From Streptomyces sp. NBC_00425 (GTDB lineage: Bacteria > Actinomycetota > Actinomycetes > Streptomycetales > Streptomycetaceae): DNA of 64,000 nt. Below are positions 4,317 through 36,006 of this stretch, in pieces (position 1 is the stretch's first letter; each line of letters starts with the position of its first letter). The stretch spans positions 5,518,001-5,582,000 of the forward strand of contig NZ_CP107928.1 of the NCBI RefSeq assembly GCF_036030735.1. The letters are read 5' to 3'. The notes below the pieces were generated by a model. The model did not search any database, was not told the DNA's origin, and saw only the letters and a program-made list of their open reading frames with translations. The position numbers were made by a program, and so were the translations under genes.

Positions 4317-4321
4317 CCACG

Positions 4322-6813: not shown

Positions 6814-6857
6814 CCAAGTAATGGGTGCTCTGTGGCCTCGCGAGGGAGGAATACCCC

Positions 6858-7289: not shown

Positions 7290-7326
7290 CCGGGCGGACC
7301 AGCCCGCGTGAGTGAAGGAGCGCGTG

Positions 7327-19200: not shown

Positions 19201-19649
19201 CCACCCGCTACACGATCGGCACGGACCTGACCCGGCCGGCCACGGTCGCCGGCACCACCAGCCGTCTGACCGCGGCCTGGACCTTCACCTCGAAGCAGCC
19301 CGCCCAGCCGGCCGACTCGAAGGCGATGCCCCTCTCCACCGTCCGTTTCCACCCGAAGCTGACCCCGGCCGGCACGGCCCGCGCCGGCCACCGCACCACG
19401 GTCCCCCTCTCCATCGAGGGCCCGGCCGCCACCCACCTCAAGTCCCTCGCGGTGAAGGTCTCCTACAACGGCGGAACGACCTGGTCCAACGCCCCGGTCA
19501 CCACCAGGAACGGCAAGAGGACCCTCACCCTGACCCACCCGAAGACGGCCAGGTCGGTCTCCTTCAAGGCCACCCTGACCGACACCACCGGCAATACGTA
19601 CACGGTGACGATCCTGAAGGCATACCTCCTGACACAGGTCCTCCCGTAG
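16287..19649 (+). CDS. Secreted S8 subtilisin-like serine protease
   Basis: A 1120-residue exported protease beginning at GTG 16287, one base after the preceding stop, so it is likely cotranscribed with the sigma factor set. A signal peptide (LAALLVAGVMTGVSVSATGS) is followed by a propeptide and the S8 catalytic domain: Asp about residue 242 in VAVLDTGIDTTHPD, His about 274 in GHGTHVAATVAGSG and Ser about 449 in SGTSMATPHAAGAA. The C-terminal 600 residues form beta-rich domains. It has no sorting motif. Residues and order are complete, so it should be active. Release outside the cell for nutrition or wall processes is family knowledge. Confidence 0.92.
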   Translation: MRLGSSSAALAALLVAGVMTGVSVSATGSGLGVRTAAAATAARPDTGSPARYVTLVTGDRVQLDAWGQVTGVRRAPGRGHVPLSVRRLGDDQYVIPADAAALIGQGVLDKRLFDVSGLIRAGYDDTRRGTLPLIVSYEGKAAQRRNTQRSLLADGQGAVTVRRELPSVDGAALSVRKEEAEDTWQALTSAPGVERVWLDGRFKAAAVQGDSDKVSDNVTRIGAPTAWNAGYDGKGVKVAVLDTGIDTTHPDLASVVTESKDFSGTGSTDDRVGHGTHVAATVAGSGARSDGLYKGVAPGARLLNAKVLNDDGEGTDSSVIAGLEWAAAQGAEVANLSLGQTDAPGADPVETAVNALSESTGMLTVAAAGNEGPGAGTVGSPGAAESALTVGAVDGEDRIAEFSSVGPTADSALKPDLTAPGVDIVAAKAANGVLGDPAADGYVSMSGTSMATPHAAGAAAILAQRHPDWTGARIKQALTASTTPTAGLTGYQQGTGRLDVARALGQSVVGEQMSVSFGKQLWPHTDDRPATRRVTYRNDGDRPVTLDLTATATGPGGSAAPDGMFTLSTRQLTVPAGGTASVDLTSDTRTEAADGAYSGTVAATAQGDGDGRSVRTSFGVIREAEAYELTLKFLDRGGRPVSSPLTEIIGYSGEYETNVLEDSQQIAKGVYKVRVPRGDYVLDTLIGDGGSEGTSALVRPKLSLTKDATVTFDARKTKPVRITAPGGAKMSAGYLNYRMETGGTRYNTTLLFSDSFTDLRTASLGPAPAAGRLSTQLSGLWQKGSTTYNLLYNLPDRFPTGYQHTARMSELALLKRNIGSSVAHRKGSVNALWYGPELGLGTISDPFPLPTTAKTYVTTPKGFRWTVNVGQLNAAGEETDVFYDDQRVSYQAGRTYESTYNVGVFSPMVGQGWGAQRVGDTLDLCVPDLVDGAGHPASSVAARHTTVTAGGRTLLDNDGDLCQTVENLPAASTRYTIGTDLTRPATVAGTTSRLTAAWTFTSKQPAQPADSKAMPLSTVRFHPKLTPAGTARAGHRTTVPLSIEGPAATHLKSLAVKVSYNGGTTWSNAPVTTRNGKRTLTLTHPKTARSVSFKATLTDTTGNTYTVTILKAYLLTQVLP

Positions 19650-20487: not shown

Positions 20488-20841
20488 AGGCGGCGACGGC
20501 GCGTTCGCGAGCACGCGCGCCGCCTGATCCGAACCGCCTGGGCGCTCGGCGCACGCAAGGACCTCGAACACCTCCGCCTGCGCGCCTGGGCACACATGCT
20601 CGGCTTCCGCGGCCACTTCTCCACCAAGTCCCACCGCTACTCCACCACCCTCGGCGCACTCCGCGACGCCCGCGCCGAATGGCGACGAGCCCAGGCAGCA
20701 GCAAGCGAACCCACTCCCGAGACGACATACGTACTCGCGCACTGGGTCTTCGCCGGAACCGGCCTCTCCGACGCCGAAGCCTGGCTGGCTGCGTCCATCG
20801 AGCCCGCCCCCGGAACGGAAGGAGAACCGACTCGTGGCTGA
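20488..20841 (+). pseudogene. C-terminal fragment of a RepSA-like replication initiator
   Basis: About 110 codons match the tail of the rolling-circle/AICE replication initiator: REHARRLIRTAWALGARKDL, LRAWAHMLGFRGHFSTKSHR and YSTTLGALRDARAEWRR. In pSAM2-type elements repSA is followed by xis and int, as here. The N-terminal catalytic part was lost in the deletion that joined it to the TraB fragment. The stop at 20839-20841 overlaps the start of the excisionase gene. Confidence 0.75.
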
Positions 20842-21259
20842 CCGCTACCTCACTGTGGCGCAGGTGGCCGAACTCCTCGGCACCACGGAGCGCTTCCCGC
20901 GCCGTCTGATCGCCGAACGACGCATCACGTTCGTCAAGGTCGGCCGTCACGTCCGCATCCCGGAGCGTGAGCTGAGCGCGTTCATCGACGCCAACACAGT
21001 GCAGCCGATCAGCCACCGGCGAGGCTCGCTGCGGAGGGTTGCCCGATGGCCAACAAGAAGGGGCAGCGCAGAAGCTTCGGGTCGGTCCGACAGCTCAAGT
21101 CCGGTCGCTGGCAGGTCCGCTACCGCGACACCGAGACGGGGCTACTTCGTCCGGCCGAGAAGACTTATCCGACCAAGAGCGACGCCCAAGTCGCCCTTGC
21201 CCAGATCGAGGCCGACATCACGCGCGGCCAGTGGTCGGACCCGGACGCCGGGGCGGTGA
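20834..21259 (+). CDS. xis: Excisionase (MerR-like helix-turn-helix), extended frame
   Basis: The first 65 residues are a standard small excisionase: RYLTVAQVAELLGTTERFPR (helix-turn-helix) and RITFVKVGRHVRIPERELSA (wing). Such proteins usually stop after about 65-80 residues, at or just past the start of int. Here the frame stays open to 21259 and overlaps the integrase by 214 bp; the last 75 residues are arginine/serine-rich and look like read-through of the integrase in another frame. Either a stop codon was lost or the true protein is an unusually long one. It would direct excision together with the integrase. Confidence 0.7.
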   Translation: MADRYLTVAQVAELLGTTERFPRRLIAERRITFVKVGRHVRIPERELSAFIDANTVQPISHRRGSLRRVARWPTRRGSAEASGRSDSSSPVAGRSATATPRRGYFVRPRRLIRPRATPKSPLPRSRPTSRAASGRTRTPGR

Positions 21260-22200
21260 ACTTCGCGGAGTACGCCACGGCATGGCTGCGAGACCGGAAG
21301 CTTGCCGACCGCACCCGTGAGCGGTCTGAGTCCGTCGTGCGGCTGCACATCCTTCCCATCTTCGGTGCCGGGACCATGGCTGACGTGACGACGACTCGTG
21401 TGCGGAGCTGGCGGGGAAAGCTCCTCGCGGCCGGCGTCGGTGAGCCGACGGTGGTCAAGGCGTACCAACTGCTGCGGGCCCTGATGAACACGGCCGTGGA
21501 CGACGAACTGATCCGGCGCAAGCCGTGCCGCATCAAGGGCGCCGATCGCTATGACGTGCCCGAGCGGCCGGTCCTGTCGGTCGCCGAGGTCTTCGCCGTC
21601 GCCGACGCCATTGCGCCGCGCTACCGGCTGCTCGTCCTCCTATCCGCGTTCACCACTCTGCGCTTCGGTGAACTCGCCGCCCTCCGTCGTCGGGACATCG
21701 ACTTGGAGGGGCTGACCGTCAGTGTCCGTCGTTCTCAAGCCGAGTTGCAGGACGGCCGGCTCTTCGACAAAGCGCCGAAGACCGCTGCCGGGGTACGTGC
21801 CATCTCGTTCCCCGCCGAGCTGCTCGACGACGTGACACGCCACCTGGATCAGTTCGCCGCGTCTGGCCGCGACGGGCATGTCTTCGTCGGTCCGCAGGGC
21901 GGCCAGCTCCGGCGGAGCAACTTCCGTGACGACTGGGTGTCGGCCAGGAAGGCCGCGGGGATCACGTCGGAACTCCACTCTCACGATCTCCGCCACACCG
22001 GCAACACGCTGGCCTCGACTGCCGGTGCCAGCACCCGTGAGCTGATGACCCGCATGGGCAACAGCAGCTCGCGCGCCGCGCTGATCTATCAGCACATGAC
22101 CAGCGACCGTGACCGGGCCATCGCTGATCGGCTCGGAGCCATGATCCGCAGAAGCGTGGAAGAGCCATCAGGCTCGTCTGATCTGGAAGTATCGAAGTAG
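21046..22200 (+). CDS. int: Tyrosine-type site-specific integrase
   Basis: A complete 384-residue recombinase of the pSAM2-like class. It has an N-terminal arm-binding AP2-like region (SGRWQVRYRDTETGLLRPAE), a core-binding SAM-like region (AEYATAWLRDRKLADRTRER) and a catalytic domain with Arg in TTLRFGELAALRRRDI, Lys in DKAPKTAAGVR, HxxR in HSHDLRHTGN and the final HxxR/Tyr region SSSRAALIYQHMTSD. All catalytic residues appear intact, unlike the integrase at 34701. The attachment site it uses is not evident; no tRNA gene lies next to its 3' end. Confidence 0.92.
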   Translation: MANKKGQRRSFGSVRQLKSGRWQVRYRDTETGLLRPAEKTYPTKSDAQVALAQIEADITRGQWSDPDAGAVNFAEYATAWLRDRKLADRTRERSESVVRLHILPIFGAGTMADVTTTRVRSWRGKLLAAGVGEPTVVKAYQLLRALMNTAVDDELIRRKPCRIKGADRYDVPERPVLSVAEVFAVADAIAPRYRLLVLLSAFTTLRFGELAALRRRDIDLEGLTVSVRRSQAELQDGRLFDKAPKTAAGVRAISFPAELLDDVTRHLDQFAASGRDGHVFVGPQGGQLRRSNFRDDWVSARKAAGITSELHSHDLRHTGNTLASTAGASTRELMTRMGNSSSRAALIYQHMTSDRDRAIADRLGAMIRRSVEEPSGSSDLEVSK

Positions 22201-23383: not shown

Positions 23384-23401
23384 TGGCACGCCTGTGGCAC
23401 G
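23384..23401 (+). repeat. TGGCACG doublet, copy 1
   Basis: Two TGGCACG words start 11 bp apart with a 4-base spacer. The same doublet occurs at 28657, 30415 and 31489. This copy is 63 bp left of the left att repeat, outside the island proper. Confidence 0.7.
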
Positions 23402-23463: not shown

Positions 23464-23506
23464 GTGCCCCCGGCAGGATTCGAACCTGCGACACCCGCTT
23501 TAGGAG
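23464..23506. repeat. Left attachment-site copy (43-bp direct repeat)
   Basis: This stretch is identical to 35933-35975, the 3' part of tRNA-Arg(CCT) from the discriminator base through the T-arm, variable loop and part of the anticodon stem-loop. After 23506 the two copies diverge at once, and the CCA-encoding TGG of the tRNA is not kept on the other side. It marks the left end of an island integrated into the tRNA gene. Confidence 0.9.
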
Positions 23507-23589: not shown

Positions 23590-23614
23590 CGTTGATGTCA
23601 GCGTTGGATGTCAG
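23590..23614 (+). repeat. Arm-type-like site, copy A
   Basis: CGTTGATGTCAG, three bases, TTGGATGTCAG-type second half. The same 25-bp pattern is found at 35862, beside the right att copy, and in weaker form at 29399. Position inside both ends of the island suggests binding sites for the integrase N-terminal domain; this is inference. Confidence 0.5.
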
Positions 23615-23854: not shown

Positions 23855-24610
23855 CTACCGATTGATGGGGATCTCGTAGACGACCTCGCACAGGGCGGCG
23901 GGCACCACAATGTCGGCCGTCTCCACGGGACGGCCCTCGTCGCTGTAATACGTCCGCCGGATGTGCGTGACGAGTGCGGCCTTCTGGATGCCGAGTAGCG
24001 ACGCCTCCTCGGCGTTCGCCTGCCTCGGCTCGGGCTGCTCCACGGCGTGGCTGACGGTGACTCCGATCGCGGCCATGCGGTTCACGACGCCTGTCCCCGC
24101 ATGGGGCCCTCCTTCGGGCAGGACGACGAGAGTGCCAGCGGTGAGGTCGTACGGCTCCCAGCTCGTCGAAAGCTGCACCGGCCTGCCGTCGGCCAGAAAC
24201 TCGTAGGTCGTGCGGACGCACAGCTCGCCCTCGGCGATACCGAGACGCGCCGCGATCTCCGTCGGAGCCGGCACCTTGGCGTCGGTCCGGCTCTCCCAAT
24301 CGCCCTGCCTGCCTACCGCCTTCATGTCCGTGCGAAACGGAGACCCGGCTGGCTGCTCGCGCGCCGAGGAGCGGACGACTCGCACGCGCTGCCGGGGCTC
24401 GGCGACGTACGTGCCCGACCCCGCGCGGCCCTCCAGCACGCCCTGGGAGATCAGCAACTCCTGGGCCCGACGGACCACGTTCTCGCCCACGCCGCACTCC
24501 TGGCCGATCTGAGCGCGGGACGGCAGGCGGTCTCCCGGCTCCCAGACGTGCTCCACGATCCGCCGCCGGAGTTCCTCGGCGATACGGAGATAGGGCGGTT
24601 GCTCAGGCAT
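23855..24610 (-). CDS. GntR/HutC-type transcriptional regulator
   Basis: A 251-residue regulator. The N-terminal winged helix is standard (EELRRRIVEHVWEPGDRLPS, then GVGENVVRRAQELLISQGVL), and the C-terminal 160 residues form a UTRA ligand domain (AARLGIAEGELCVRTTYEFL, LADGRPVQLSTSWEPYDL). Similar proteins (KorSA, TraR types) control transfer or cargo genes in actinomycete mobile elements. It is divergent from the gene set starting at 24689, and two CTAGT-ACTAG operators lie between them. Repression relieved by a small ligand is expected from the family. Confidence 0.9.
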   Translation of the reverse strand: MPEQPPYLRIAEELRRRIVEHVWEPGDRLPSRAQIGQECGVGENVVRRAQELLISQGVLEGRAGSGTYVAEPRQRVRVVRSSAREQPAGSPFRTDMKAVGRQGDWESRTDAKVPAPTEIAARLGIAEGELCVRTTYEFLADGRPVQLSTSWEPYDLTAGTLVVLPEGGPHAGTGVVNRMAAIGVTVSHAVEQPEPRQANAEEASLLGIQKAALVTHIRRTYYSDEGRPVETADIVVPAALCEVVYEIPINR

Positions 24611-24619
24611 ATGGAAAAT

Positions 24620-24650
24620 CTAGTCCACTAGCTCTAATCTAGTTAACTAG
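24620..24650. promoter_or_regulatory. Pair of GntR operators, CTAGT-NN-ACTAG
   Basis: CTAGTCCACTAG (24620-24631) and the perfect palindrome CTAGTTAACTAG (24639-24650) stand 19 bp apart, centre to centre, in the short A/T-rich gap between the GntR gene and the divergent set. They match the GT-N-TA-N-AC style bound by HutC-type regulators and are 10-40 bp from the GntR start codon. Confidence 0.65.
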
Positions 24651-24688
24651 CTTCACTCAAAGTGATCGCTGGTGACGGAGGCTGTCCT

Positions 24689-24967
24689 GTGCCCGCTTCG
24701 GGAGTTAGCGCGGCGGCCATCGCCGCCCGGCTGTCCGCCCTCGGGCTGCACACGCGAGTGGAGGAACACCCCCGGCACACGTCGGTGGAAGCGGAGGTGC
24801 CGGACGCGCTCTCCGCCGAGTCATGGCGGGAGGTCCTGGACGTGATGGCTGAGGCCGACCGGTTCGGGCTCCTGGCCACCAGTTTGAACGGCCGCACCCT
24901 CTGGGCGGTCGTACGCAAAGCGGTCCCCACGACGGGCGATGTCGGGGGACCGAGCCTTCAGCGATAG
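24689..24967 (+). CDS. Small hypothetical island protein
   Basis: A 92-residue protein from GTG 24689, seven bases after GGAGG. It reads ASGVSAAAIAARLSALGLHT, then VEEHPRHTSVEAEVPDALSA and LLDVMAEADRFGLLATS-like residues, a compact alpha/beta mix with no membrane segment. No family is recognised. It heads a run of seven closely spaced genes (24689-26751) that share overlaps and are probably one transcript controlled by the GntR operators upstream. Confidence 0.6.
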   Translation: MPASGVSAAAIAARLSALGLHTRVEEHPRHTSVEAEVPDALSAESWREVLDVMAEADRFGLLATSLNGRTLWAVVRKAVPTTGDVGGPSLQR

Positions 24968-24979
24968 GAGCTGAACAGC

Positions 24980-25288
24980 GTGCTCAACCGTATCCGCCGT
25001 GCCCTCTCCCTCACCAGGGTGCGGAACTCCACAAGGGGCAAGCACCGCCGCCCGTTAACGCCCTCCACGCCTCCGGCGCTCCTTCCCGCCCCCGTTGACG
25101 TGTCGCCCCCCGTCCTGAGCCGGGCCCCCGCTGGCGACGCGGCTCATCGACCCGTGCTAACGGGGGAGGACGTCGCGCTCGTCCGCCCGTACGTGCTGGC
25201 CTGGGAAAGCCGCGTGCGGACCCGCGCGGTGGTTGTTGCCCCTCACCTGTCGGCCGACGCCTGGTCGGCCCTCGCGGGGGTCAGCTGA
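24980..25288 (+). CDS. Hypothetical island protein with a conserved C-terminus
   Basis: A 102-residue protein starting at GTG 24980 after AGGAG. The N-terminus is very basic (RIRRALSLTRVRNSTRGKHR), the middle is proline-rich and the end (GEDVALVRPYVLAWESRVRT, then RAVVVAPHLSADAWSALAGV) resembles short proteins I have seen in other Streptomyces islands next to GntR genes. The last base of its stop is the first base of the next ATG. Confidence 0.6.
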   Translation: MLNRIRRALSLTRVRNSTRGKHRRPLTPSTPPALLPAPVDVSPPVLSRAPAGDAAHRPVLTGEDVALVRPYVLAWESRVRTRAVVVAPHLSADAWSALAGVS

Positions 25289-25491
25289 TGCCGCCTCGTC
25301 GACAGCCGCACCTTACGGACACCTCGGCCGTCCCCTACCGCTCGACGGCCTGCCGGATCGGCACGCACCTCGCCTGCGCGGAGTCCTCGCCGGCCTCGGT
25401 ACCGGACGACCTCCCGGTGGTCTACGAAGTGTGCGACTGCCCGTGCCACTTGTTGCCCGACCGGTCCACACTCGAGGGGGTGACGCAGTGA
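25288..25491 (+). CDS. Small cysteine-rich island protein
   Basis: A 67-residue protein with CRIGTHLAC near the middle and CDCPCH near the end, five or six cysteines and histidines that could hold a metal ion. It is coupled to the genes on both sides (1-base overlap at the start, GTGA at the end). No family is recognised. Confidence 0.55.
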   Translation: MPPRRQPHLTDTSAVPYRSTACRIGTHLACAESSPASVPDDLPVVYEVCDCPCHLLPDRSTLEGVTQ

Positions 25492-25712
25492 GCAACCGGG
25501 CCTTCGGCGGCGCACTGGTCTCCAACATCGAGGTCACCGCGACCACCGTGCAGCGCGGCGACATCATCCAACTCGGCGGTCGTGCCTGTCGGGTGAGAGA
25601 CCTCTTCCAACTCCCCCAGGGAGCAAAGCAACTGGTCTTCGAGTCGGGAGAGTTGCTGACCATACACACCCGCACCCGGCTCGTAGCCGTGCGGACACTG
25701 AGAAGGCGGTGA
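25488..25712 (+). CDS. Small hypothetical beta-rich island protein
   Basis: A 74-residue protein from the overlapping GTG 25488. The sequence alternates short strands (VTATTVQRGDIIQLGGRACR, then VRDLFQLPQGAKQLVFESGE), which would suit a small beta-barrel. No family is recognised. Its stop overlaps the start of the second GntR gene (GTGA at 25709-25712). Confidence 0.55.
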   Translation: MSNRAFGGALVSNIEVTATTVQRGDIIQLGGRACRVRDLFQLPQGAKQLVFESGELLTIHTRTRLVAVRTLRRR

Positions 25713-26452
25713 CCGGGCCCATGCCTTCCCGCCACCAAGACATCGCCGACGACCTGCGCCACCAGATCACGAGCGGGCGCATGCAACCCGGCGAACGCCT
25801 TCCTTCCGAAAGCGTCCTGGCCGACCGGTACGCGGTCAGCACAGTGACGCTGCGGCATGCTCTCGCGATGCTCCAGGGCGAAGGCCTCGTCGAAAAGATC
25901 CACGGAAAGGGCAACTTCGTCCGCCGCCCTCTTCGCAAGATCATGTACGTCGGGGGCTGGGGAACGCTGGACCCGTGGACCGCGGCCAGCCCGGCCTTGC
26001 GCGTCACCGTTCGCAGCAACACCGTTCAGGCCGACGGGCACCTCACGACTCTCTTGAAGGTGCCCACGGGCAGCCCTCTCGCAGAGTTCTTCTGCCTCAG
26101 CCTCGAAGGGGAGTCACCGCACGGGCTGGCCCGCATCTACCTGCCGCGTGACCTGGCTCCGGCCGGAGTGCTCGACGACGACTCCGCGTGCCAAGAGGCA
26201 GTCACAAGATTCGCCGTCCTCGGCCCTCCGCCGGCCGCTGTCCGGGAGACGGTGTGCGCCCGCCCAGCGACGCCGGACGAAGCCGCAGCTCTCCGGATCA
26301 GCCCCGCAGCAGTCGTCCTCGCGATCACCCGCATCGCGACCGACTCCACTGGCCGCGTCGTCGAAGCCGCGCTCCTGGCCTTCCCAAGAGATCGCGTCGA
26401 CGCGGTCTTCACCACCCACCACGTGATCGATGAAAGGCAGACTCAAGGATGA
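25709..26452 (+). CDS. Second GntR/HutC-type regulator of the island
   Basis: A 247-residue GntR protein (243 if ATG 25721 is used). The winged helix is complete (ADDLRHQITSGRMQPGERLP, YAVSTVTLRHALAMLQGEGL, VEKIHGKGNFV), followed by a UTRA-type domain (PTGSPLAEFFCLSLEGESPH, then AVRETVCARPATPDEAAALR). It is not closely similar to the regulator at 23855. Unlike that one it sits inside the operon and so may set the level of its own transcript. Its stop overlaps the next start (ATGA). Confidence 0.88.
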   Translation: MTGPMPSRHQDIADDLRHQITSGRMQPGERLPSESVLADRYAVSTVTLRHALAMLQGEGLVEKIHGKGNFVRRPLRKIMYVGGWGTLDPWTAASPALRVTVRSNTVQADGHLTTLLKVPTGSPLAEFFCLSLEGESPHGLARIYLPRDLAPAGVLDDDSACQEAVTRFAVLGPPPAAVRETVCARPATPDEAAALRISPAAVVLAITRIATDSTGRVVEAALLAFPRDRVDAVFTTHHVIDERQTQG

Positions 26453-26836: not shown

Positions 26837-26851
26837 ACAGCGTTTGCGCCT

Positions 26852-26944
26852 CAGCCGACAACAGTCCGCCACAATGGCGGGTGCGCCGACTGACCGACCA
26901 GGCGCGCGTATGTCTCGCTGCACTCCCACCGACCTCAGCCACGC
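26852..26944. repeat. Dispersed repeat of about 90 bp, copy 1
   Basis: This stretch aligns almost base for base with 31512-31600, beginning CAGCCGAC and ending CCTCAGCCACG, with a few substitutions and short gaps. A small hairpin CCGCCA-CAA-TGGCGG is inside. It does not belong to any gene that I can recognise. Confidence 0.65.
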
Positions 26945-27090: not shown

Positions 27091-28368
27091 TCAGTTCGGG
27101 GAGGACGAGGGTGGCAGTCCGCGCGCCCCGTGGGTCTTGGCTCTGGTGAGCTTGGCTCCGGTGAGCCGCGCCCCTCGCAGGTCGGCATTGGTGAGGTTTG
27201 CTCCGGTCAGGTTCACACCGCGTAGGTCAGCACTTGTTAGGTCGGCGCCGCTAAGGTTGGCGTTCGACAGATTCGCGCTGTCCGTGACGGCACCAGAGAT
27301 GATCTTGGATTGTAGTGACTTGTCAGCAGCGCTGAGCTTCGCGCCGTGCAGCTTCGCGCCGGTCAGGTCCGCGCCCTGCAGGTTGGCATCAACCAGGATT
27401 GCCTCGGTCAGGTTTGTTCCTTGAAGGCTTGCACCTGTGAGATCCGCGTCCCAGAGAACAGCATTGGTGAGATTGGACGATTCGGTGCCGATTGGCGCGT
27501 CCGGTCGTCGCCCCAGCTCGGCCTCGTGCAAGTTCGCGCTGCTGAGGTCTGCACCGGTCAGGTCCGTCTCAACAAGTCCCGCGCCGGTCAGGTCTGCTCC
27601 GTACAGTTGGGCATTGGCCAGGCTTACGCGCAGGAATGTCGCTCCGCTCATGTCGGCTTCGCCAGCGAACGCGTTGCGCAGATCTACTCCCGCAACCACT
27701 GCATGCCGTAGGTCCGCACCCTCCATGATCGCGTAACTGAATGAGGAACGCGTGCGGGGAAGTTCGCCGCCCTTGGAGATCTTCGCGATGTCCTTGATGT
27801 CCCAGGTGGACAGCGTCAGGCCCCGCAGGTCCGTTTGGTTCCAGTCGAGCTGCGCACCGTTGTCGTGGCCAGGTGGGCGGCGGGCCAGTACATTCATCAC
27901 GGCTGCCACATCAGTGGACGGTCGACGTTTGAGTGCCACCGCAAGGTCCTTGGGCTCTTTCACGAAGCCGCTGGGCGGTACGGGTGCGTGGCTTCGCATG
28001 TACGCCGACAGGACCGAGATGATCCTGGGCTGATCGCGAGGCGAGTCCTGCATGATGCGCTCCAGCGCGTAGATCCCTCCGAAGCGCACGTCCAACGACG
28101 GCGACCCCAGGTTGGTGATCGCGTCGTTGAACCGGCTGGTGAGCTGTGCCTGTTCGGCGACCCGTACTTCCCGCCAGGTGAACAGCAGCGCCAGCACTGC
28201 GGCCAGGCCAGGCAAGGTGGCCACCATGAGCCCGAGCCATTGGGCCCGGCCCAAGCCGCCGGCACCCTGCATGCCCGCACTGCGGCTGCGGCGCCGTTGT
28301 CCGACCGCGCGACTGCGAGCGATCCGACTCGGTCTTCCACGGCCTGTATTGCTCCTCACCTGGTCCAT
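27091..28368 (-). CDS. Membrane-anchored pentapeptide-repeat protein
   Basis: A 425-residue protein from ATG 28368. A basic N-terminus precedes one membrane span (WLGLMVATLPGLAAVLALLF), then a helical linker (SRFNDAITNLGSPSLDVRFG, IYALERIMQDS) and a long C-terminal run of A(D/N)LxxA pentapeptides (for example ADLTGAGLVETDLTGADLSS, LRGVNLTGANLTNADLRGA). The repeats fold as a right-handed square beta-helix. This membrane plus repeat plan is frequent in Streptomyces; some pentapeptide proteins mimic DNA, but a membrane-tethered one is more likely a scaffold. It is monocistronic. Confidence 0.88.
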   Translation of the reverse strand: MDQVRSNTGRGRPSRIARSRAVGQRRRSRSAGMQGAGGLGRAQWLGLMVATLPGLAAVLALLFTWREVRVAEQAQLTSRFNDAITNLGSPSLDVRFGGIYALERIMQDSPRDQPRIISVLSAYMRSHAPVPPSGFVKEPKDLAVALKRRPSTDVAAVMNVLARRPPGHDNGAQLDWNQTDLRGLTLSTWDIKDIAKISKGGELPRTRSSFSYAIMEGADLRHAVVAGVDLRNAFAGEADMSGATFLRVSLANAQLYGADLTGAGLVETDLTGADLSSANLHEAELGRRPDAPIGTESSNLTNAVLWDADLTGASLQGTNLTEAILVDANLQGADLTGAKLHGAKLSAADKSLQSKIISGAVTDSANLSNANLSGADLTSADLRGVNLTGANLTNADLRGARLTGAKLTRAKTHGARGLPPSSSPN

Positions 28369-28629
28369 GGCAACCGACAGACACCGAAACGAGCTGACGC
28401 CACACCGGCGAGGCACCCGATCGCCAGGGTCACCCGCAGGCTTCGCGGCGCCACCCAGCACGAGCTCGTACACCGGTCGCCTTCGAGGAGCGCGACAGCA
28501 CGCTCCGGCCCACCTACGACGCCGCCTGAGCCCTCAGCTTGGGAAGCTTGGGTTCTACGGGCTCGACAATCCCGCTGACCTGCTGTCGATCCGTGTCATG
28601 GCCTGGGGGCGTCTCTGAGTGGGTGACCG

Positions 28630-28674
28630 CTGTTCCCCGTGGCTCCCCGCAGTATCTGGCACGAGTCTGGCACG
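28630..28674 (+). repeat. 45-bp repeat with TGGCACG doublet, copy 2
   Basis: CTGTTCCCCGTG and a second CCCCGCA block lead into two TGGCACG words 11 bp apart (28657 and 28668). The same arrangement stands at 30388-30432 and 31462-31506. About 80 bp before it lies an AGCTTGGGAAGCT word shared with the region before the 30388 copy. Confidence 0.7.
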
Positions 28675-28695
28675 GGGCGCGTTCAGGCGGGTTAG

Positions 28696-29184
28696 TCAGT
28701 CGCGCCGCGGCCCTGGCACGCCGATACCGGATCTGAGATCGGTGGAGGCGGTCAACGAGTGGGCCGCGGCCCTGAGACCGTTCTCCCATCCCGGGAGTTC
28801 GTCCGCGTCCATCCATTTGCTGTAGCCCGCTGCGATGGAGAGGAACTGTGTCTCCTCCGGGGTGCGGGCTGCGACTGTCATCGACAGCCGGTCGACCACG
28901 TCCTTGGGGCTCAGCTCGGCATTCGCGAGACCGACCGCGAGGCTTACGAGGAGCCAGCGGCCGGCCGTCTCATCGTCGGGAAGGGGTACGCCGAGTTCGT
29001 GCAGGGTTTGGACGTACAGTTCACGGATCTCGGTCTCGTCGCTCCTGCGTGGCAGGCCGGCCAGTGAACGCAGGGCGGGGGAATCACGCCCGTCGACGAG
29101 TGCATGAGCAGCAAGCATCGGGAGCTCCTCGGGTGGGAGTATCTCCGCCACATACCGCCAAGCGCTGTCCTGCAATCGGTCCAT
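28696..29184 (-). CDS. Hypothetical helical protein
   Basis: A 162-residue soluble protein from ATG 29184 (MDRLQDSAWRYVAEILPPEE). The sequence is mostly helical and acidic (DETEIRELYVQTLHELGVPL, then DDETAGRWLLVSLAVGLANA) and ends with LTASTDLRSGIGVPGPRRD. No family is recognised. It stands alone between two repeat units of the island; together with its size this resembles the nearby immunity-like genes, but there is no sequence match to support that role. Confidence 0.55.
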   Translation of the reverse strand: MDRLQDSAWRYVAEILPPEELPMLAAHALVDGRDSPALRSLAGLPRRSDETEIRELYVQTLHELGVPLPDDETAGRWLLVSLAVGLANAELSPKDVVDRLSMTVAARTPEETQFLSIAAGYSKWMDADELPGWENGLRAAAHSLTASTDLRSGIGVPGPRRD

Positions 29185-29398
29185 GCACTCATCGTGAGAG
29201 CAACGAGACTTCCTGGCCAGCTGATTGCCGTTTTGGCCTCGGCTCCCTTGCGGAGCGACCTCTTCGTCCCGAACTCTCGGCTGGAGGGTCATTGAGGTCT
29301 GGTGGGGTGGTCAGCTGGCCACGGAGGGGCGTTAGCGGTCAGCTGAGGTTTCGGTGGTTGCTGTACTCCGTTGCTGTGCAGCGGTCAGGGGATCATGT

Positions 29399-29423
29399 CG
29401 TTGATGTCAGCCCTGGACGTCAT
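29399..29423 (+). repeat. Arm-type-like site, copy B (weaker)
   Basis: CGTTGATGTCAG followed by CCCTGGACGTCAT repeats the pattern of 23590 and 35862 with one substitution in the second half. It is in the middle of the island, so it could mark an internal junction of two older elements. Confidence 0.45.
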
Positions 29424-29440
29424 CTCACACAGACTGGGGA

Positions 29441-29683
29441 TCACTTTCGACGCCTGCGTGCCTTCGCCTTGCGTTCGGCTTCCTTGCGCTTCTCGATGGT
29501 GTACGACGACCACTCGCCACGGTGCAGGTTGCATCGCGACGCACCCACCATCGCCAGCCGCCGGCACCGAGTGCCCTTCTCCGTGAGCGCTCCACACCTG
29601 GACTGCGTAGGAGCCACGTCTCCCACCTCCGGTCTCGGCCGTTGTGCGGACCAGTGCAGGATTGCCGTGCACATGTCTTCCAT
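29441..29683 (-). CDS. Small zinc-motif protein
   Basis: An 80-residue basic protein containing RCGALTEKGTRCRRLAMVG followed by SRCNLHRG. The C-x(n)-GxxC...C-x2-H pattern occurs in short phage and island proteins of unknown role and should bind one zinc ion. The tail is a charged helix (EKRKEAERKAKARRRRK). The start is uncertain because no ribosome binding site precedes ATG 29683; a later in-frame start would keep the motif. Confidence 0.5.
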   Translation of the reverse strand: MEDMCTAILHWSAQRPRPEVGDVAPTQSRCGALTEKGTRCRRLAMVGASRCNLHRGEWSSYTIEKRKEAERKAKARRRRK

Positions 29684-29941
29684 GGAAGGTGCACTGCCCC
29701 GCGCAGCGGTGCACGGCGGCCCAGGGAGGTTGCTTGGGGGCGCACGCTTTCCAACTGTGTTGGTGGGGCGTTGAGCTCTGTGCAGAAGCGTTCACCTGCG
29801 TTCATGAGCGGTTGGCTGTCCGGGCGGGGACGGCTCGGGGTCTCGCCTGAACCGTCGTGAACGGAGCTGAATGAGACGGAAACTGAGACGGCGGCCGGCG
29901 GACAGCGTGCCTTGTCAGACCCATGGTGAATGATCCCTGGC

Positions 29942-30295
29942 ATGGGATACGAGCTTCACATCACGCGGGCATCGGACTGGATGGACAGCGAGGAGTACCC
30001 GATCGCGTTCGATGAGTGGATCGCGTTCGCTCGGGGCTGCCCAGGGCTCCGCGAGGATGGGTACCTCGACCTGGTCGACGTCGGTCGGCAGCCGGGCTTC
30101 ACTTGGAGCAGCCCGGGGGGTGCCTCTGTCGGGCTCCATTGGTACGAGGGAAGTGTGACGCTGTCCGGCGCGCATGCCCCTGATGTTGACCGGGCTTCCC
30201 TGGCCGACCTCGCAGCAGAATTGGCAGCGAACCTCGTCGGGGACGACGGCGAGCACTACACAGGGACCCGCGGGAACGAGGGCGTAGAGCACTGA
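29942..30295 (+). CDS. Conserved small protein, possible immunity protein
   Basis: A 117-residue acidic protein from ATG 29942 (MGYELHITRASDWMDSEEYP). Short proteins opening with this Y-E-L-H-I-T-R pattern and a downstream FDEWIAFA are common in streptomycetes and resemble small immunity proteins in size and charge. Strands GYLDLVDVGRQPGFTWSS and SVGLHWYEGSVTLSG follow. No ribosome binding site is obvious. The toxin-immunity idea rests on size, charge and company (an Imm32-like gene next door). Confidence 0.55.
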   Translation: MGYELHITRASDWMDSEEYPIAFDEWIAFARGCPGLREDGYLDLVDVGRQPGFTWSSPGGASVGLHWYEGSVTLSGAHAPDVDRASLADLAAELAANLVGDDGEHYTGTRGNEGVEH

Positions 30296-30387
30296 GCTTG
30301 GGAAGCTCAGGGCGTCTGGGGCTTGCTCCAGGCCTGACCTGCGGCGGCGGGACGCAGACGTGCGGTGGACGGCCGATTAGTTCCCCG

Positions 30388-30432
30388 CTGTTCCCCGTGA
30401 TTCCCCGCACGATCTGGCACGCGTCTGGCACG
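30388..30432 (+). repeat. 45-bp repeat with TGGCACG doublet, copy 3
   Basis: CTGTTCCCCGTG, CCCCGCA and the doublet (TGGCACG at 30415 and 30426) match the copy at 28630 closely over the whole 45 bp. It ends three bases before the stop of the minus-strand Imm32-like gene. Confidence 0.75.
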
Positions 30433-30434
30433 AG

Positions 30435-30695
30435 TCATTCGTCGTCACACCGCTCCAAGACCAGGCCTACGGAGCCCTCTTCGAGCCCGTTGTTCTCCTC
30501 CAAGTGGAGATGAGCACCGTCCGGCGTGCCATCCTGGGCGAGCGTGAGGAGGTGGCCGGCCAGGGTCTTCAACCCGGCAGCGTTTGCCTCTATGACGATC
30601 TCACCGCCCAGGTTGCGGACCTCGATGCGTGCGCCTTCCTCCCACGTGAAAACTCTGGTGACTCCATCGGTCGCCGCACTCACGTGAGTGGTCAT
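30435..30695 (-). CDS. Imm32-like immunity protein
   Basis: An 86-residue protein. Its core (GGEIVIEANAAGLKTLAGHL, then LTLAQDGTPDGAHLHLEENN and GSVGLVLER) follows the pattern I know for immunity protein family Imm32: a strand, the AxGLxxLAxHLLxLAQ helix, PDGAHxHL and a closing strand. Such proteins protect a cell from a cognate secreted toxin. No toxin gene is nearby, so it would be an orphan. The start is uncertain: ATG 30695 gives the usual length, ATG 30725 adds ten residues. Confidence 0.6.
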   Translation of the reverse strand: MTTHVSAATDGVTRVFTWEEGARIEVRNLGGEIVIEANAAGLKTLAGHLLTLAQDGTPDGAHLHLEENNGLEEGSVGLVLERCDDE

Positions 30696-30923
30696 CGACG
30701 GAGCAGCGCTGGGTTTAGGGGACATACTCCAAGCATCGCGTACTCCGGGCCGGACGCGACGGCGAGAACTGTACGGCGAGACATGGGTGACGACTTCTTC
30801 GTCCCGAAGCAACTTGGGCGATGTCTGCGCCTTGGGCTGGTGTGCCGCGCACCTGTGCTGATGGTCCGTAAGCGTCCGCGCTCGTCCGCCGCTGTCTGCT
30901 GGCGTTGTCACGCAGTTAGACAC

Positions 30924-31319
30924 TCACGCATGCTGCCCACAGCTCAGCAAGCGCAGGTCGTTCGAGACCATGACCTGAGCGAGGCGTCCGGCGATGGCCA
31001 CGACTTCGGGCCAGGCTGATGCCTGAAGGTACTCAGCGTCGGTGTCGTGGGGTGCCTCCGCGGCGGCAGCGTTGAGCGCGACGCCGAGGGCCCGCATGAG
31101 AGTTACCTCTTCCTCCGTTCTCAAGCTGATGCCGAGAAACCGCTCAGGCTCATCGGCGTCACAGAAGTCATCGAAGAGCGCGTGGAAGACGTGGTCGATG
31201 TTCTCGAACTCCGAAGGGTCGAGCCACACGTCCCGCTGCCACGGTGGATTGGCCAGAGCCAAGACCACAGGTACGACGTGGACACGGTGATTCGCCATGA
31301 CTTGGGCTTCTGCGCTCAC
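30924..31319 (-). CDS. SCO4402-like small protein
   Basis: A 131-residue acidic protein (or 124 from ATG 31298). NPPWQRDVWLDPSEFENIDH, FHALFDDFCDA and FLGISLRTEEEVTLMRALG resemble a conserved streptomycete family (SCO4402-like) with a DVW motif and a late WPEVV; the match is by memory of the pattern. Proteins of this kind are often encoded in clusters of small orphan genes. It lies just upstream of the Imm32-like gene on the same strand, about 230 bp apart. Confidence 0.5.
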   Translation of the reverse strand: MSAEAQVMANHRVHVVPVVLALANPPWQRDVWLDPSEFENIDHVFHALFDDFCDADEPERFLGISLRTEEEVTLMRALGVALNAAAAEAPHDTDAEYLQASAWPEVVAIAGRLAQVMVSNDLRLLSCGQHA

Positions 31320-31461
31320 GAGCCGAGCCTAGCGACCGCACCTTCAGAAGGCGCTGGTGTTTTCTGGAGCACCACTTTAGGAGAGAGGCGGGTGAGTGTG
31401 GGCGTTGACCTGGAGCTTCGATACCTGGTCAGCCTGCCGAGAACTCGACCGCGAGACACCC

Positions 31462-31506
31462 CCGTTGACCGTGGCTGACCCCTGCATCTGGCACGACAGT
31501 GGCACG
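31462..31506 (+). repeat. 45-bp repeat with TGGCACG doublet, copy 4 (diverged)
   Basis: The doublet is exact (TGGCACG at 31489 and 31500), the preceding 27 bp match the other copies at most positions (GTTGACCGTGGCTGACCC against GTTCCCCGTGGCTCCCCG). It is directly followed by copy 2 of the dispersed repeat at 31512. Confidence 0.65.
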
Positions 31507-31511
31507 AACAT

Positions 31512-31600
31512 CAGCCGACGACAGTCCGCCACGACGGCGGGTGCGCCAGCCGACCACGCACGCGTGTGCCTCGCTGCGCCCCCACTGGCCTCAGCCACGT
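31512..31600. repeat. Dispersed repeat of about 90 bp, copy 2
   Basis: It aligns with 26852-26944 and has the hairpin CCGCC-ACGAC-GGCGG at the same place, with compensating changes in the loop-side bases. It lies in the 240-bp stretch between the repeat at 31462 and the A/T-richer gene at 31838; nothing else is visible there. Confidence 0.65.
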
Positions 31601-31837
31601 TACTGGCTTGTGTCGTCGACCAGAGCGGGCCACGACGGTCGGCCCCGTGAGGATGGTGCGCGAGCTCCCAGCTTGGGGAGCTGCAATCAACTACGGCCAG
31701 CTTGGACGTTGACCTGGGCGAACGGTCGGTCCGTGGCGTCGGGCTGGGCTGTACCCACCGTGCTCCCCCGCGGTCGGGGACCTGCTATTTTCAACGACTT
31801 GACTACTTGGGTCTAGGCGCCGTGACAACCTGTAGTC

Positions 31838-32857
31838 GTGACCCCTCAGCGACGCATCACAGAGTTCGGCATGGTCGCCGAACTCACCAGGTCAATCATG
31901 CTTGAGCCTCGTGCACTGCGCGATGAGAGCATTCCGAAAGAATTGCTCGAATACGCGAATGAGTGTCATCTCTATCTGATCGGGCATCGTCCGCTTACTG
32001 TCGTTGACCCTGACTCGCTCAGCGTGGATGACGATCTAATCACGGCACGATTCATTAGTTATGAACAGTCCGAAGATGCGATCGTGGAGTGCTTCTGGAG
32101 GCAGCCGGGATTGTCGGGTGCTGTAAGTATTGAATCGGACTGGCCGCACAATGTGCTGAAGATGAAGGACTCTTCGGGGCGTCAGATCGCGAGAGGGAAC
32201 GCCAGTTATTTTCTGGCTTATGCCATGGCCCAGACAGATTCGGACATGGAAAGGATTCCAGTAGATTCCCAGTTTCTAGATCTGATGGTCGACTACGTGG
32301 GGAAGGCCTACGGTGCGGAAGGTAGTCGAGGGGCGATAACCCGGCTTCAGTCGCACAGTACACTCCAGAGGATTCTGACTGAACTTCCTCGGGATATGGA
32401 AGCCTGGATTGTTCTGCTAAATAGCGACTCGCAAACACTCTTCACGTCGATTGTGCCATCTGGTGAAAGAGGTGATGCTGCGGACTTGGAAGATGATCAG
32501 CACCTAGAGCGAGCCCTGAGCGGCCCGCTTAGAGAGGAGATGATCGTCGACTTCCTGGAAGGGTGCTTGATTAAGTATTTTCAACCCCCTTATAACGTGC
32601 AGCTAAAAAAGACATTCCCGCAGGCGTCTGCAAAGCCCTTGGCTGAACTCTATGCGCGAGATTTGAATCTGGTTGGTTTTGAGCTAGACACCAAACACCT
32701 CAGCATGCGACTGCGGTCAACAGAAGTGCGTCCTAGTTTCGGGCATGTAGTCATGTATCCCTTGCATGACCCAGAAGAACGCAAGGACATGTTTGATTTC
32801 GTTGACGATATTGAAGTGCTTCGTGCGCGCAGAGAGGATCCTGAAGCGATGAGTTGA
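31838..32857 (+). CDS. GIY-YIG-like protein of unknown function
   Basis: A protein of up to 339 residues in clearly A/T-richer sequence than its neighbours, a sign of recent transfer. Residues about 150-185 read LMVDYVGKAYGAEGSRGAIT, then RLQSHSTLQRIL, which looks like the YIG...R...H part of a GIY-YIG nuclease fold. About 65 residues later EGCLIKYFQPPYN fits the closing E-LI-P-N motif. No classical GIY start is clear. The C-terminal 80 residues (LVGFELDTKHLSMRLRSTEV) form an extra domain. The GTG 31838 start lacks a ribosome binding site. A nuclease or defence role is possible and untested. Confidence 0.5.
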   Translation: MTPQRRITEFGMVAELTRSIMLEPRALRDESIPKELLEYANECHLYLIGHRPLTVVDPDSLSVDDDLITARFISYEQSEDAIVECFWRQPGLSGAVSIESDWPHNVLKMKDSSGRQIARGNASYFLAYAMAQTDSDMERIPVDSQFLDLMVDYVGKAYGAEGSRGAITRLQSHSTLQRILTELPRDMEAWIVLLNSDSQTLFTSIVPSGERGDAADLEDDQHLERALSGPLREEMIVDFLEGCLIKYFQPPYNVQLKKTFPQASAKPLAELYARDLNLVGFELDTKHLSMRLRSTEVRPSFGHVVMYPLHDPEERKDMFDFVDDIEVLRARREDPEAMS

Positions 32858-34582: not shown

Positions 34583-34701
34583 ACGGTGTTGGCAGTACGG
34601 ACTCGCACCGCCTCGCCTCCATCAAGATCGACGGCGCCCGCCGCATCCCTGCCCACGCCGTCACCGACTTCGTCCTCGGCCAGATCGAGGAGGCTGCCTG
34701 A
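34583..34701 (+). pseudogene. C-terminal remnant of the island excisionase
   Basis: The last 32 codons before the integrase read RLASIKIDGARRIPAHAVTD, then FVLGQIEEAA and stop, the wing and tail of a MerR-like excisionase. The helix-turn-helix half is missing and replaced by IS5-type debris. Its stop overlaps the integrase ATG (TGATG at 34699-34703), the usual xis-int coupling. Without the first half it cannot support excision. Confidence 0.7.
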
Positions 34702-35854
34702 TGGCCAGTCAGCGCAAGCGCAATCCGAACGGCGCCGGCACCATCACCAAGCGCAAGGACGGCCGCTTTCAGTGCGTGGTCTACGTGCTCCAACCGGACG
34801 GCACCCGCGCCCGCAAGTTCGCCTACGGCAAGACATGGGCCGAGTGCGACGCCAAGCGCCGGGAGCTGCTCGACAAGGTGGACCAGGGCGTGGCCGTGCC
34901 CACCAAGTCGGCCAAGCTCTCCGAGTGGCTGCCGTACTGGCTGGACAACGTCATCAAGCCCCGGCGCAAGCTCAGCACCTTCGACAAGTACGAAGCGCAC
35001 GTCCGCCTCTACCTGGTGCCTCTCCTCGGTGGCAAGCGGCTCGAAAGCCTCGGCGTCGCCGACGTCCGCCGCTTCCTCATGCGCCTGGAGAAGGAGACGA
35101 CCGCCGCAACCGCCAAGAAGTCGCACCGGGTTCTGCGCTCGGCGCTGACCTCCGCCTGCCGTGAGGAACTCATCACGCGCAACGTCGCCAAGCTCGTCGA
35201 GCCGCCGCGCACGGACAATCGGGAGTTGCAGCCTGGAGCCTCGACGAGACGCTCGACTTCCTCGCGGCCTCTCGTAAGGATCCGCTCTACGCGGCCTTCG
35301 TCCTCGCCATCGCCATGGGCCTGCGGCGGGGCGAGATCATCGGTCTCCGCTGGTCCGACCTCGACCTCGACAACCGCGTCCTCTACGTCCGCCAGCAGAC
35401 CCAGCGCCGTCGCGGCGTCCTCTACGACGACGACCCCAAGAGCCGCCGTCGTCGTGTCGTCCCGCTGCCCGCGCTCTGCATCGCGCCCTTGCGCTGGCAC
35501 CGGATGCGGCAGGCGGCGGCTCGGGCCAAGGCGGGGGAGACCTGGCAGGAGTCGGGCTACGTCTTCACCACCCGTACCGGTCGTCAGGTCGAGCCGCGGA
35601 ACGTCTACCGCTCCTTCACCCGCGTCGCCCAGTCCGCCGGCCTCCGCGTGATCCGGCTGCACGACGCCCGGCACGGCACCGCCACGCTCCTCACGGCGGC
35701 CGGGGTCGCACCGCGCGTCGTGATGGAGATCCTCGGGCACTCGCAGATCAGCATCACCATGGACGTCTACACGCACGTCGTGCAGGACACGCAACGGGAA
35801 GCCATGAGCCACATGGACCGGCTGCTGCGGAAGAGGCGCCCCGGTCGTCAGTGA
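34701..35854 (+). pseudogene. int: Frameshifted tyrosine integrase of the tRNA-Arg island
   Basis: Reading starts well (GAGTITKRKDGRFQCVVYVL, AKLSEWLPYWLDNVIKPRRK) and continues to TDNRELQP, then a one-base deletion near 35235 moves the frame. The rest is in the next frame: WSLDETLDFLAASRKDPLYA, MGLRRGEIIGLRWSDLDLDN (catalytic Arg), VIRLHDARHGTATLLTAAGV (HxxR), LGHSQISITMDVYTHVV (H and Tyr). Joined, it would be about 383 residues and complete. It ends 76 bp before the tRNA gene, the expected place for int. As written it is inactive unless ribosomes shift frame or the base is a sequencing error. Confidence 0.85.
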
Positions 35855-35861
35855 CCGTTGT

Positions 35862-35886
35862 CGTTGATGTCAGATCTGGATGTCAG
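35862..35886 (+). repeat. Arm-type-like site, copy C
   Basis: CGTTGATGTCAG, ATC, TGGATGTCAG: the same pattern as copy A at 23590. It lies between the integrase stop and the terminator next to the tRNA, 47 bp inside the right att copy. Confidence 0.55.
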
Positions 35887-35930: not shown

Positions 35931-36006
35931 TGGTGCCCCCGGCAGGATTCGAACCTGCGACACCCGCTTTAGGAGAGCGGTGCTCTATCCCCTGAGCTAC
36001 GAAGGC
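35931..36006 (-). tRNA. tRNA-Arg (anticodon CCT)
   Basis: A complete 76-nt tRNA on the minus strand. The acceptor arm pairs GCCTTCG with CGGGGGC (two G-U pairs), the anticodon arm CCGCT/AGCGG encloses CTCCTAA giving anticodon CCT, the T-arm GCAGG/CCTGC encloses TTCGAAT, and CCA is encoded at the 3' end. It reads AGG codons, which are rare in Streptomyces. Its 3' part is the attachment site of the island and stays intact after integration. Confidence 0.96.
35933..35975. repeat. Right attachment-site copy (43-bp direct repeat)
   Basis: Identical to 23464-23506 and lying within the tRNA-Arg gene. The repeat covers the 3' part of the gene from the discriminator to the anticodon loop, a classical integration target. 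The island between the copies measures about 12.5 kb. Confidence 0.9.

Follow-up and report, generated by a model that had tools for sequence, protein, structure and literature searches.

The window (the whole stretch of 64,000 nucleotides of Streptomyces sp. NBC_00425 that was analysed) contains a tRNA-Arg island, which is composed of short modules joined at att cores. The features of this island, in order of position, are as follows.

20834 to 21259, plus strand: excisionase gene (Pfam HTH_17; TIGR01764 'excise', NCBIfam, 56.6 bits against a cut-off of 28.8)
21046 to 22200, plus strand: int1, an uninterrupted tyrosine integrase gene (384 aa; Pfam Phage_integrase; 77 related loci)
23384 to 23401, plus strand: TGGCACG arm doublet belonging to an att site, on its P' (tRNA) side; the Arg core lies 115 bp to the right
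23464 to 23506, no strand assigned: duplicate (43 bp, 100% identity) of the tRNA-Arg(CCT) 3' half, with the core loop TTAGGAG at its end (23500 to 23506)
23591 to 23613, plus strand: arm doublet of a second family, GTTGATGTCAG-N3-TGGATGTCA; the Arg core lies 92 bp to the left
28536 to 28548, plus strand: att core AGCTTGGGAAGCT, tRNA-Gly(CCC) anticodon stem-loop
28630 to 28656, plus strand: C-rich repeats between core and doublet; candidate excisionase sites, judged from the sequence and its consensus
28657 to 28674, plus strand: P-side arm doublet; the Gly core lies 121 bp to the left
28696 to 29292, minus strand: cargo ORF, no family match
29262 to 29273, plus strand: att core CTTCGTCCCGAA, anticodon loop of tRNA-Pro(CGG)
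29400 to 29422, plus strand: arm doublet of the second family (GATGTCA/GACGTCA); the Pro core lies 138 bp to the left
29930 to 30295, plus strand: cargo ORF (121 aa), no family match
30295 to 30307, plus strand: att core AGCTTGGGAAGCT, tRNA-Gly CCC loop
30381 to 30407, plus strand: TTCCCCG, three times, 10 bp apart
30415 to 30432, plus strand: P-side arm doublet; the Gly core lies 120 bp to the left
30435 to 30923, minus strand: ORF with an Imm32 domain (residues 108-158); the true gene start is probably nearer 30726
30797 to 30808, plus strand: att core CTTCGTCCCGAA, tRNA-Pro CGG loop
30907 to 30928, plus strand: arm site of a third family, GTCACGCAGTTAGACACTCACG, like the arm-type repeats published for pSAM2/pACPL; CGTCCCGAA lies 107 bp to the left
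30924 to 31319, minus strand: cargo ORF, SCO4402 family / DUF7945
31371 to 31384, plus strand: att core CCACTTTAGGAGAG, anticodon loop of tRNA-Arg(CCT)
31489 to 31506, plus strand: P-side arm doublet; the Arg core lies 113 bp to the left
31671 to 31683, plus strand: Gly-like core AGCTTGGGGAGCT, not followed by an arm doublet; in other genomes the Arg module has its right border here
34701 to 35651, plus strand: int2, a second tyrosine integrase, N-terminal part
35315 to 35854, plus strand: catalytic part of int2 in a different reading frame (gene broken)
35863 to 35885, plus strand: P'-side arm doublet of the second family; the tRNA core lies 105 bp to the right
35931 to 36006, minus strand: tRNA-Arg(CCT), the target gene of the island

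Within one island, att cores taken from three tRNAs thus alternate with three kinds of arm site. A reading of the region as a defence island was rejected, as PADLOC returned for 10 window proteins a single weak mad2 match, on a methyltransferase.

The initial annotation had reported a unit shared by three loci, and a 48-bp unit at 28627 indeed recurs at 30385 (90% identity) and 31459 (75%). Its fourth doublet at 23384 and uniform orientation were likewise recovered by an exact search for TGGCACG-N4-TGGCACG, which gave four sites (23384, 28657, 30415 and 31489), all on the plus strand and with starts 11 bp apart. The word said to precede two of the copies is AGCTTGGGAAGCT, present at 28536 and 30295. 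Of the C-rich block described as common to the three units, the repetition was found and the common wording was not, as the third copy carries GTTGACCGTG and not GTTCCCCGTG; the GTTGACCGTG form is the subtype accompanying the tRNA-Arg core. Allowing up to two mismatches raised the window matches to six, a number reached in none of 100 shuffles. In the source genome (9.8 Mb), nine exact doublets were present, against one for the reversed-pattern control. They are neither randomly spread nor part of an unrelated repeat, since each of the nine is accompanied, at the proper distance, by a core derived from a tRNA.

In a sample of 150 genomes from the genus, 251 doublets were counted in 97 genomes, against 130 occurrences of the reversed control in 87. 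Because the control is also frequent, a lone doublet is weak evidence, and about half of the lone doublets genus-wide may be due to chance. At least three doublets per genome were found in 34 of these genomes against nine for the control, and the largest number in one genome was 14 against four. The Arg core together with the doublet was detected in 56 of 295 genomes and the Gly core with the doublet in 80 of 295, the reversed control giving zero in all rows.

The words upstream of the doublets are att cores, made up of tRNA anticodon loops and half-sites (AGCTTGGGAAGCT for Gly, CACTTTAGGAG for Arg and CTTCGTCCCGAA for Pro), the first being the anticodon stem-loop of tRNA-Gly(CCC). The cores match the Gly, Arg and Pro anticodon loops, although the 100% loop identity proves nothing, because the loop letters formed part of the search patterns, and the flanks alone count. 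The distance from core to doublet is rigid: genus-wide, 52 of 68 Arg matches showed a spacing of 113 bp and 75 of 100 Gly matches one of 120-121 bp, while the Pro core at 29262, with its arm 138 bp away, has an unusual spacing. In 61 regions, a core stood at the expected distance from 81 of 101 doublets, against 0-5 of 95-101 in shifted controls; since these regions were chosen for intact doublets, decayed sites are under-counted. The remaining 20 doublets had no core by pattern, and inspection by eye gave about 12 variants and about eight that are unexplained. As in the att sites of AICEs, arm-type repeats flank the core at fixed distances (P' 111-115 bp to the left, P 112-123 bp to the right) and the core overlaps the 3' part of a tRNA gene, here tRNA-Arg(CCT) at 35931-36006 and its identical 43-bp copy at 23464. 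The same layout recurs in two further arm families, one of them pSAM2-like.

Mapping of the doublet relative to integrases and tRNA genes, proposed in the initial annotation as a check, placed it within 250 bp of the tRNA in 58 of the 59 int1-relative loci that have a tRNA within 2.5 kb (52 exact); the pattern read backward did so in four of the 59. Another 18 int1-relative loci had no tRNA in range and lie outside the 59. The adjoining tRNAs were Arg, Val, Thr or Gly. The doublets being tied to both tyrosine integrase and tRNA, the suggestion of integrase arm sites is supported; judged from sequence, their attribution to a tyrosine-integrase family appears largely right. The companion suggestion, recombination borders left by stepwise cargo capture, fits with AGCTTGGGAAGCT being an att core about 120 bp before the doublet, so that the earlier guess was right for the most part. 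A higher conservation of the N-terminal part than of the rest, sought as a sign of arm recognition, was not observed among the Int1 relatives. Against the integron-integrase model, Int1 scored 38.2 bits (cut-off 265), which does not place it among integron integrases. Nor are the modules whole AICEs carrying int, rep and tra in each unit: on the basis of one integrase HMM, an integrase-like ORF was absent from 42 of 48 bounded units and, in the window, from four of the five counted.

Taken together, it is probable that the doublets are arm sites of AICE-type tyrosine integrases and that island modules have been inserted, removed and exchanged at tRNA-loop cores. Evidence bearing on this proposal was obtained by comparing 64 P-side sites from the 61 regions in 2,016 pairs. 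Nothing was common on either side in 1,839 pairs, while 107 were similar on the right only, 67 on the left only and three on both sides; 44 of the 67 left-only pairs merely have the tRNA 3' half in common. Among pairs with the tRNA half at neither site, 64 were right-only, 23 left-only and two similar on both sides, and in 38 more pairs one module occurred once after the tRNA half and once after something else. A BLAST-based count gave 10 both-sided against 540 one-sided matches at cores, compared with 24-57 both-sided of 51-124 at random anchors. HSP starts near cores numbered 62 against 0-13 in shifted controls, whereas HSP ends (33) were barely above the highest shifted control (23). Some match borders fall at or past the arm doublet rather than the core, and two larger piles of match starts, at 30950-30959 (17) and 29740-29749 (13), coincide with no recognised core. 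Module-wise matches were also obtained around a solitary site at 3550375 (41 genomes searched) and in a search with 17 kb of the island. One window module was found after a tRNA-Pro 3' half in genome G062, and a second copy of it lies in the tRNA-Gly island of the source genome.

The left end of each module is a core with a P arm and is attR-like. Such ends might have been left by complete elements that accreted at the tRNA and lost the rest by ordinary deletion, only whole-element integration having moved DNA. Accretion with remnants at tRNA-Arg is described for Streptomyces in the available text of PMC9513070, int2 is broken, and among the 64 P-side sites four retain a P' doublet on the left of their core and 18 the tRNA 3' half, all of which would agree with this account. 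However, the other 46, although found by core pattern, keep the half-site and core, where random deletion should not halt. In stripped right-only pairs, identity is 56-70% from -11 to -1 and 26-28% beyond -12. In stripped sites, the tRNA-like left half-site is retained and similarity is gone beyond about -12. In addition, a 288-292 bp unit running from an Arg to a Gly core is shared by six regions (L076, L185, L202, L207, L208 and L210), and Gly and Pro cores lie inside an Arg island. Deletion of accreted elements is thus considered an unlikely explanation.

Still less likely is that RecA, and not an integrase, shuffled the modules by recombination through core-P arm repeats held in common. 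P arms of the same family offer about 100 bp of partial similarity, and in left-only pairs a similarity of 55-65% persists into the P arm, so these pairs alone cannot put the break at the loop. Nevertheless, L268 and L209 have a common non-tRNA left flank up to TTTAGGAG and then arms of different families, and the Pro-core joins in G062, G212 and G095 switch partner at the core or right beside it. Finally, an operator for a transcription factor or sigma factor, present in islands by accident, is hardly a credible reading of the doublet. Direct repeats one helical turn apart, an intergenic placement and the resemblance of TGGCAC to the sigma-54 -24 element are compatible with it, but the distance to tRNA-derived cores is fixed on either side, the doublet sits between int and tRNA, and two other arm families show a matching layout.

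Under the proposal of integrase-mediated exchange, the att core, about 113-121 bp from the doublet, would be the site of strand exchange, with a 7-bp anticodon loop and half-sites of about 11 bp. Elements integrating at tRNA-Arg would have left att sites behind, and integrases with tRNA-Arg, -Gly, -Pro or -Val specificity, whether resident or incoming, would later have recombined the cores and so inserted, removed and exchanged short modules, mostly integrase-less and each headed by a core and P arm. Cores of different tRNAs would come to alternate, since a circle cut at cores of one type takes others with it. Modules could be mobilised by an AICE in trans or in cis, and the C-rich repeats beside the arm sites may bind excisionase. 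As most modules have no P' arm, moving one module alone would not be a textbook attL x attR reaction. The anatomy of the sites, their rigid spacing, the link with int and tRNA and the similarity breaks at cores can be read from the DNA itself; from these, we infer that an integrase binds the doublet, that the island grew via repeated integrase action and that the shuffling was carried out by integrases.

Accretion and cis-mobilizable remnants are already known, and no description of mixed-tRNA-core shuffling or of mixed-core, integrase-less cassette arrays was found in the open-access literature. Core, rigid spacing and arm doublet together would form a sequence rule for locating insertion seams in Streptomyces, the accessory genome of which is of great practical interest. 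The proposal would account for the mixing of att sites and tRNA targets of different integrases in one island, and with it the route by which small accessory genes without a recombinase of their own enter tRNA islands becomes open to testing.

Among known systems, AICEs of the pSAM2, pMR2 and SLP1 kind resemble the present island in having a tyrosine integrase and excisionase, a tRNA 3'-end target and arm-type repeats flanking the att identity segment. In pSAM2, the available text reports these repeats as integrase-bound and essential for efficient recombination (PMC3364876). The pMR2 Int is 43% identical and is accompanied by related 11-bp doublets (2-3 mismatches) 234 bp apart; TCGCAC-type doublets with 11-bp spacing lie on both sides of a stretch that, in our own reading, resembles a tRNA 3' end and in which ARAGORN calls no tRNA. 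Unlike AICEs, most modules here are integrase-less and consist of a core, P arm and short cargo, often without the tRNA 3' half and P' arm. CIMEs and products of site-specific accretion (the ICESt1 family and Streptomyces islands) similarly retain att sites while having no genes for integration and transfer and can be cis-mobilised, according to the available text of PMC5704250 and PMC9513070. However, CIMEs keep attL and attR, whereas the window has alternating single cores that stem from at least three tRNAs and go with three arm families, and many of the modules are smaller than 1 kb and recur in other combinations. The ssrA islands of Dehalococcoides also stand in tandem at a single RNA gene, every boundary being marked by a direct repeat, and 16 of 31 include an integration module (PMC3146451, available text). 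They differ in using a serine recombinase and a single target gene, and mixed core types are not mentioned in that text.

Integron cassettes form arrays of short modules with one recombination site each, served by a tyrosine recombinase in trans, and in this they are like the present modules. In contrast to integrons, the site here is an anticodon-loop core with arm sites and not a folded attC, there is no single platform integrase, and a fixed, integron-style cargo orientation had to be dropped (18 minus, 13 plus and 33 without a clear ORF). As a tentative extension, plausible though short of likely, Streptomyces may harbour a decentralised, integron-like shuffling of mostly integrase-less core and P-arm cassettes, in which the several AICE integrases at work (tRNA-Arg, -Gly, -Pro and -Val) differ in their arm sites and interleaved cores let each integrase move cassettes that arrived via another.

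An island of 12.5 kb lies between a tRNA-Arg(CCT) gene, the sole tRNA gene called in the window, and a copy of that gene's 3' half. The features framing it are:

20834-21259, excisionase, left of the tRNA copy
21046-22200, int1, an uninterrupted tyrosine integrase, left of the tRNA copy
FtsK-like ORFs, left of the tRNA copy
23464-23506, exact 43-bp copy of the 3' half of tRNA-Arg(CCT)
int2, a second integrase read in two frames, ending beside tRNA-Arg(CCT)
35931-36006, minus strand, tRNA-Arg(CCT)

A large subtilase-family ORF (16287-19649; 1,120 aa) stands left of the island. Two GntR/UTRA regulators (23855-26452) stand one at each end of a ~3-kb stretch, which recurs with similar ends in at least five other genomes.

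The initial annotation had reported four doublets, TGGCACG-N4-TGGCACG, in one orientation, and all four were found on the plus strand (23384, 28657, 30415 and 31489). It had also described a C-rich unit common to three loci; the repeat is present, its second and third copies matching the first at 90% and 75% identity, but the third copy lacks GTTCCCCGTG and carries GTTGACCGTG. The word said to precede two copies, AGCTTGGGAAGCT, does stand ahead of two doublets and is the loop of tRNA-Gly(CCC). Separately, 26851-26943 is 81-84% identical to 31511-31599, the ~90-bp stretch that follows the doublet of the third unit copy, with no exact doublet ahead of the upstream copy. Across 150 genomes of the genus, the lone doublet occurred 251 times vs 130 for the backwards-read pattern, only about twice as often, though clusters exceeded that ratio, with at least three doublets in 34 genomes vs 9.

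The doublet loci compared, partly overlapping, numbered 39, nine in the source genome and 30 in as many other genomes. Some of the doublets lay a short distance from a tRNA 3' end, that of tRNA-Gly(CCC) or tRNA-Arg(CCT); others were preceded by a fragment of an anticodon stem-loop. Besides the Gly word, the att cores of this kind are TTTAGGAG, the loop of tRNA-Arg(CCT), and CTTCGTCCCGAA, that of tRNA-Pro(CGG). Doublets of the P' arm, on the tRNA side, lie 111-115 bp left of the core and those of the opposite P arm 112-123 bp right of it; all nine exact doublets of the source genome have a tRNA-derived core at such a distance. In 61 regions chosen for intact doublets or a match to the window, from genomes that sample species rather than strains, 101 doublets with at most one mismatch comprised 17 with a P' core only, 64 with a P core only and 20 with none, while windows shifted by 600-1500 bp contained a core for 0-5 of 95-101 doublets. 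By eye, about 12 of the core-less doublets are variant sites and about eight are unexplained. In 295 genomes, core plus doublet gave a control of 0 in every row; of 68 Arg matches, 52 have a spacing of 113 bp, and of 100 Gly matches, 75 have one of 120-121 bp.

The doublet also accompanies the integrase. Relatives of int1 were compared at 77 loci, 59 of which carry a tRNA no more than 2.5 kb downstream, and at 58 of these a doublet with at most two mismatches (52 without mismatch) lies within 250 bp of the tRNA; the backwards-read pattern does so in four of 59. The tRNAs at the 58 loci are Arg(CCT) (40), Val(TAC) (13), Thr(TGT) (4) and Gly(TCC) (1), and thus the doublet is constant while the tRNA target varies. 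In the int1 relatives, residues 1-66 show no better conservation than the remainder, which counts against a simple view of this link.

Two further arm families were recognized, and all three are present in the window. There the motifs of the second and third families, like the core words of Gly and Pro type, are confined to the island. The second, GTTGATGTCAG-N3-TGGATGTCA, was found in 64 of 150 genomes (control columns 0), and at nine of 30 loci a called tRNA gene, Arg or Val, lay 60-62 bp from it; of its 19 P-side sites, 12 lie 92 bp and two 91 bp right of a core. Of 74 Pro-type cores, 13 have the third-family motif, GTCACGCAGTTAGACAC, 107 bp right of CGTCCCGAA, one has it at 108 bp and one at 96 bp; next to the source genome's tRNA-Pro it stands at -110. 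The Pro core at 29262 is atypical, having a second-family arm 138 bp away.

BLAST with 28300-31900 gave matches in at least 319 of 392 genomes. Among the 148 matches listed, after two from the source genome itself were dropped, 48 began at the Arg core (31360-31389) and 14 ended at the Gly-like core (31680-31689), but no core was recognized at two other start points, 30950-30959 (17 matches) and 29740-29749 (13 matches). Among the same matches, 14 ended near 29743-29892, at which those 13 begin, and this 150-bp stretch is perhaps another small unit. When the 61 regions were compared all against all, 62 of 1,615 start bins had a P-side core no more than 15 bp away, against 0-13 in the shifted controls; match ends gave a weak signal (33 of 1,587, controls up to 23).

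Individual modules, the short segments bounded by cores, recur in different company. The segment 30790-31689, preceded in the window by an Imm32 module, is 90% identical in G062, a compared genome in which its left flank is a tRNA-Pro 3' half. In G212 the Imm32 module extends from a Gly core to a Pro core; G095 has a different module after the Pro core. A second copy (93%) of the SCO4402-family module begins at a Pro core in the source genome's tRNA-Gly(CCC) island (L070, G000:C1:4753000-4772500), a sister island with the same layout as that of the window. An Arg-to-Gly core unit of 288-292 bp is repeated in six regions. A pentapeptide-repeat protein (27091-28473) lies left of the first Gly core; a stretch of 93% identity in G024 (L177) stops just ahead of the core, and another module comes next there. 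Both ends were seen for 48 units, and in 42 of them no integrase was detected by an HMM that derives chiefly from int1 relatives and so may overlook other integrases; their median length is 862 bp (range 288-7,358). Four of the five units counted in the window likewise gave none. Window cargo comprises Imm32, SCO4402/DUF7945 and ORFs without a family, with no clear defence system among it.

Similarity at the cores is predominantly one-sided. Of 2,016 pairs of the 64 P-side sites, scored at a threshold of 45 (top of 300 shuffled scores, 34), 1,839 had no similarity, 107 were similar on the right only, 67 on the left only and three on both sides. The similarity of 44 left-only pairs is the common tRNA 3' half, and 38 more right-only pairs have that half at one site of the two; pairs in which neither site keeps it number 64 right only, 23 left only and two both. 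These pairs are non-independent, 56 stripped same-core right-only pairs deriving from 27 sites and 19 left-only pairs from 17. A BLAST-based count at cores found similarity on both sides in 10 cases and on one side in 540; at random anchors (five sets of 64), 24-57 of 51-124 were both-sided.

Stripped right-only pairs show 26-28% identity beyond -12, rising to 56% between -11 and -4 and to 70% between -3 and -1, loop identity being set by the search pattern itself; stripped sites keep a tRNA-like half-site to about -11. Stripped left-only pairs are 91% identical at -11 to -4 and fall only to 55-65% in the P arm, because sites of one core type have similar P arms. Together the two profiles place the left edge of exchange sharply, but not the right one. 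The sharpest single case is that of regions L268 and L209, which have a common non-tRNA left flank through the Arg loop and then different arm families.

These results support the earlier idea of integrase arm sites, or borders of stepwise cargo capture, and we infer that an integrase carries out module exchange. Exchange by RecA in place of an integrase is less likely, as is plain decay.

Accretion and cis-mobilizable remnants are already known from published accounts; within the accessible open-access literature, no description was found of mixed tRNA cores, of interleaved arm families, or of stripped cores reused to join short, mostly integrase-less modules. PMC3364876 reports that the pSAM2 integrase binds the arm repeats, which efficient recombination requires. 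The third-family motif resembles the pACPL/pSAM2 arm repeat. The circular element pMR2, whose Int is 43% identical to Int1, carries two doublets of this kind (2-3 mismatches) 234 bp apart, in line with summed P' and P distances of 223-238 bp.
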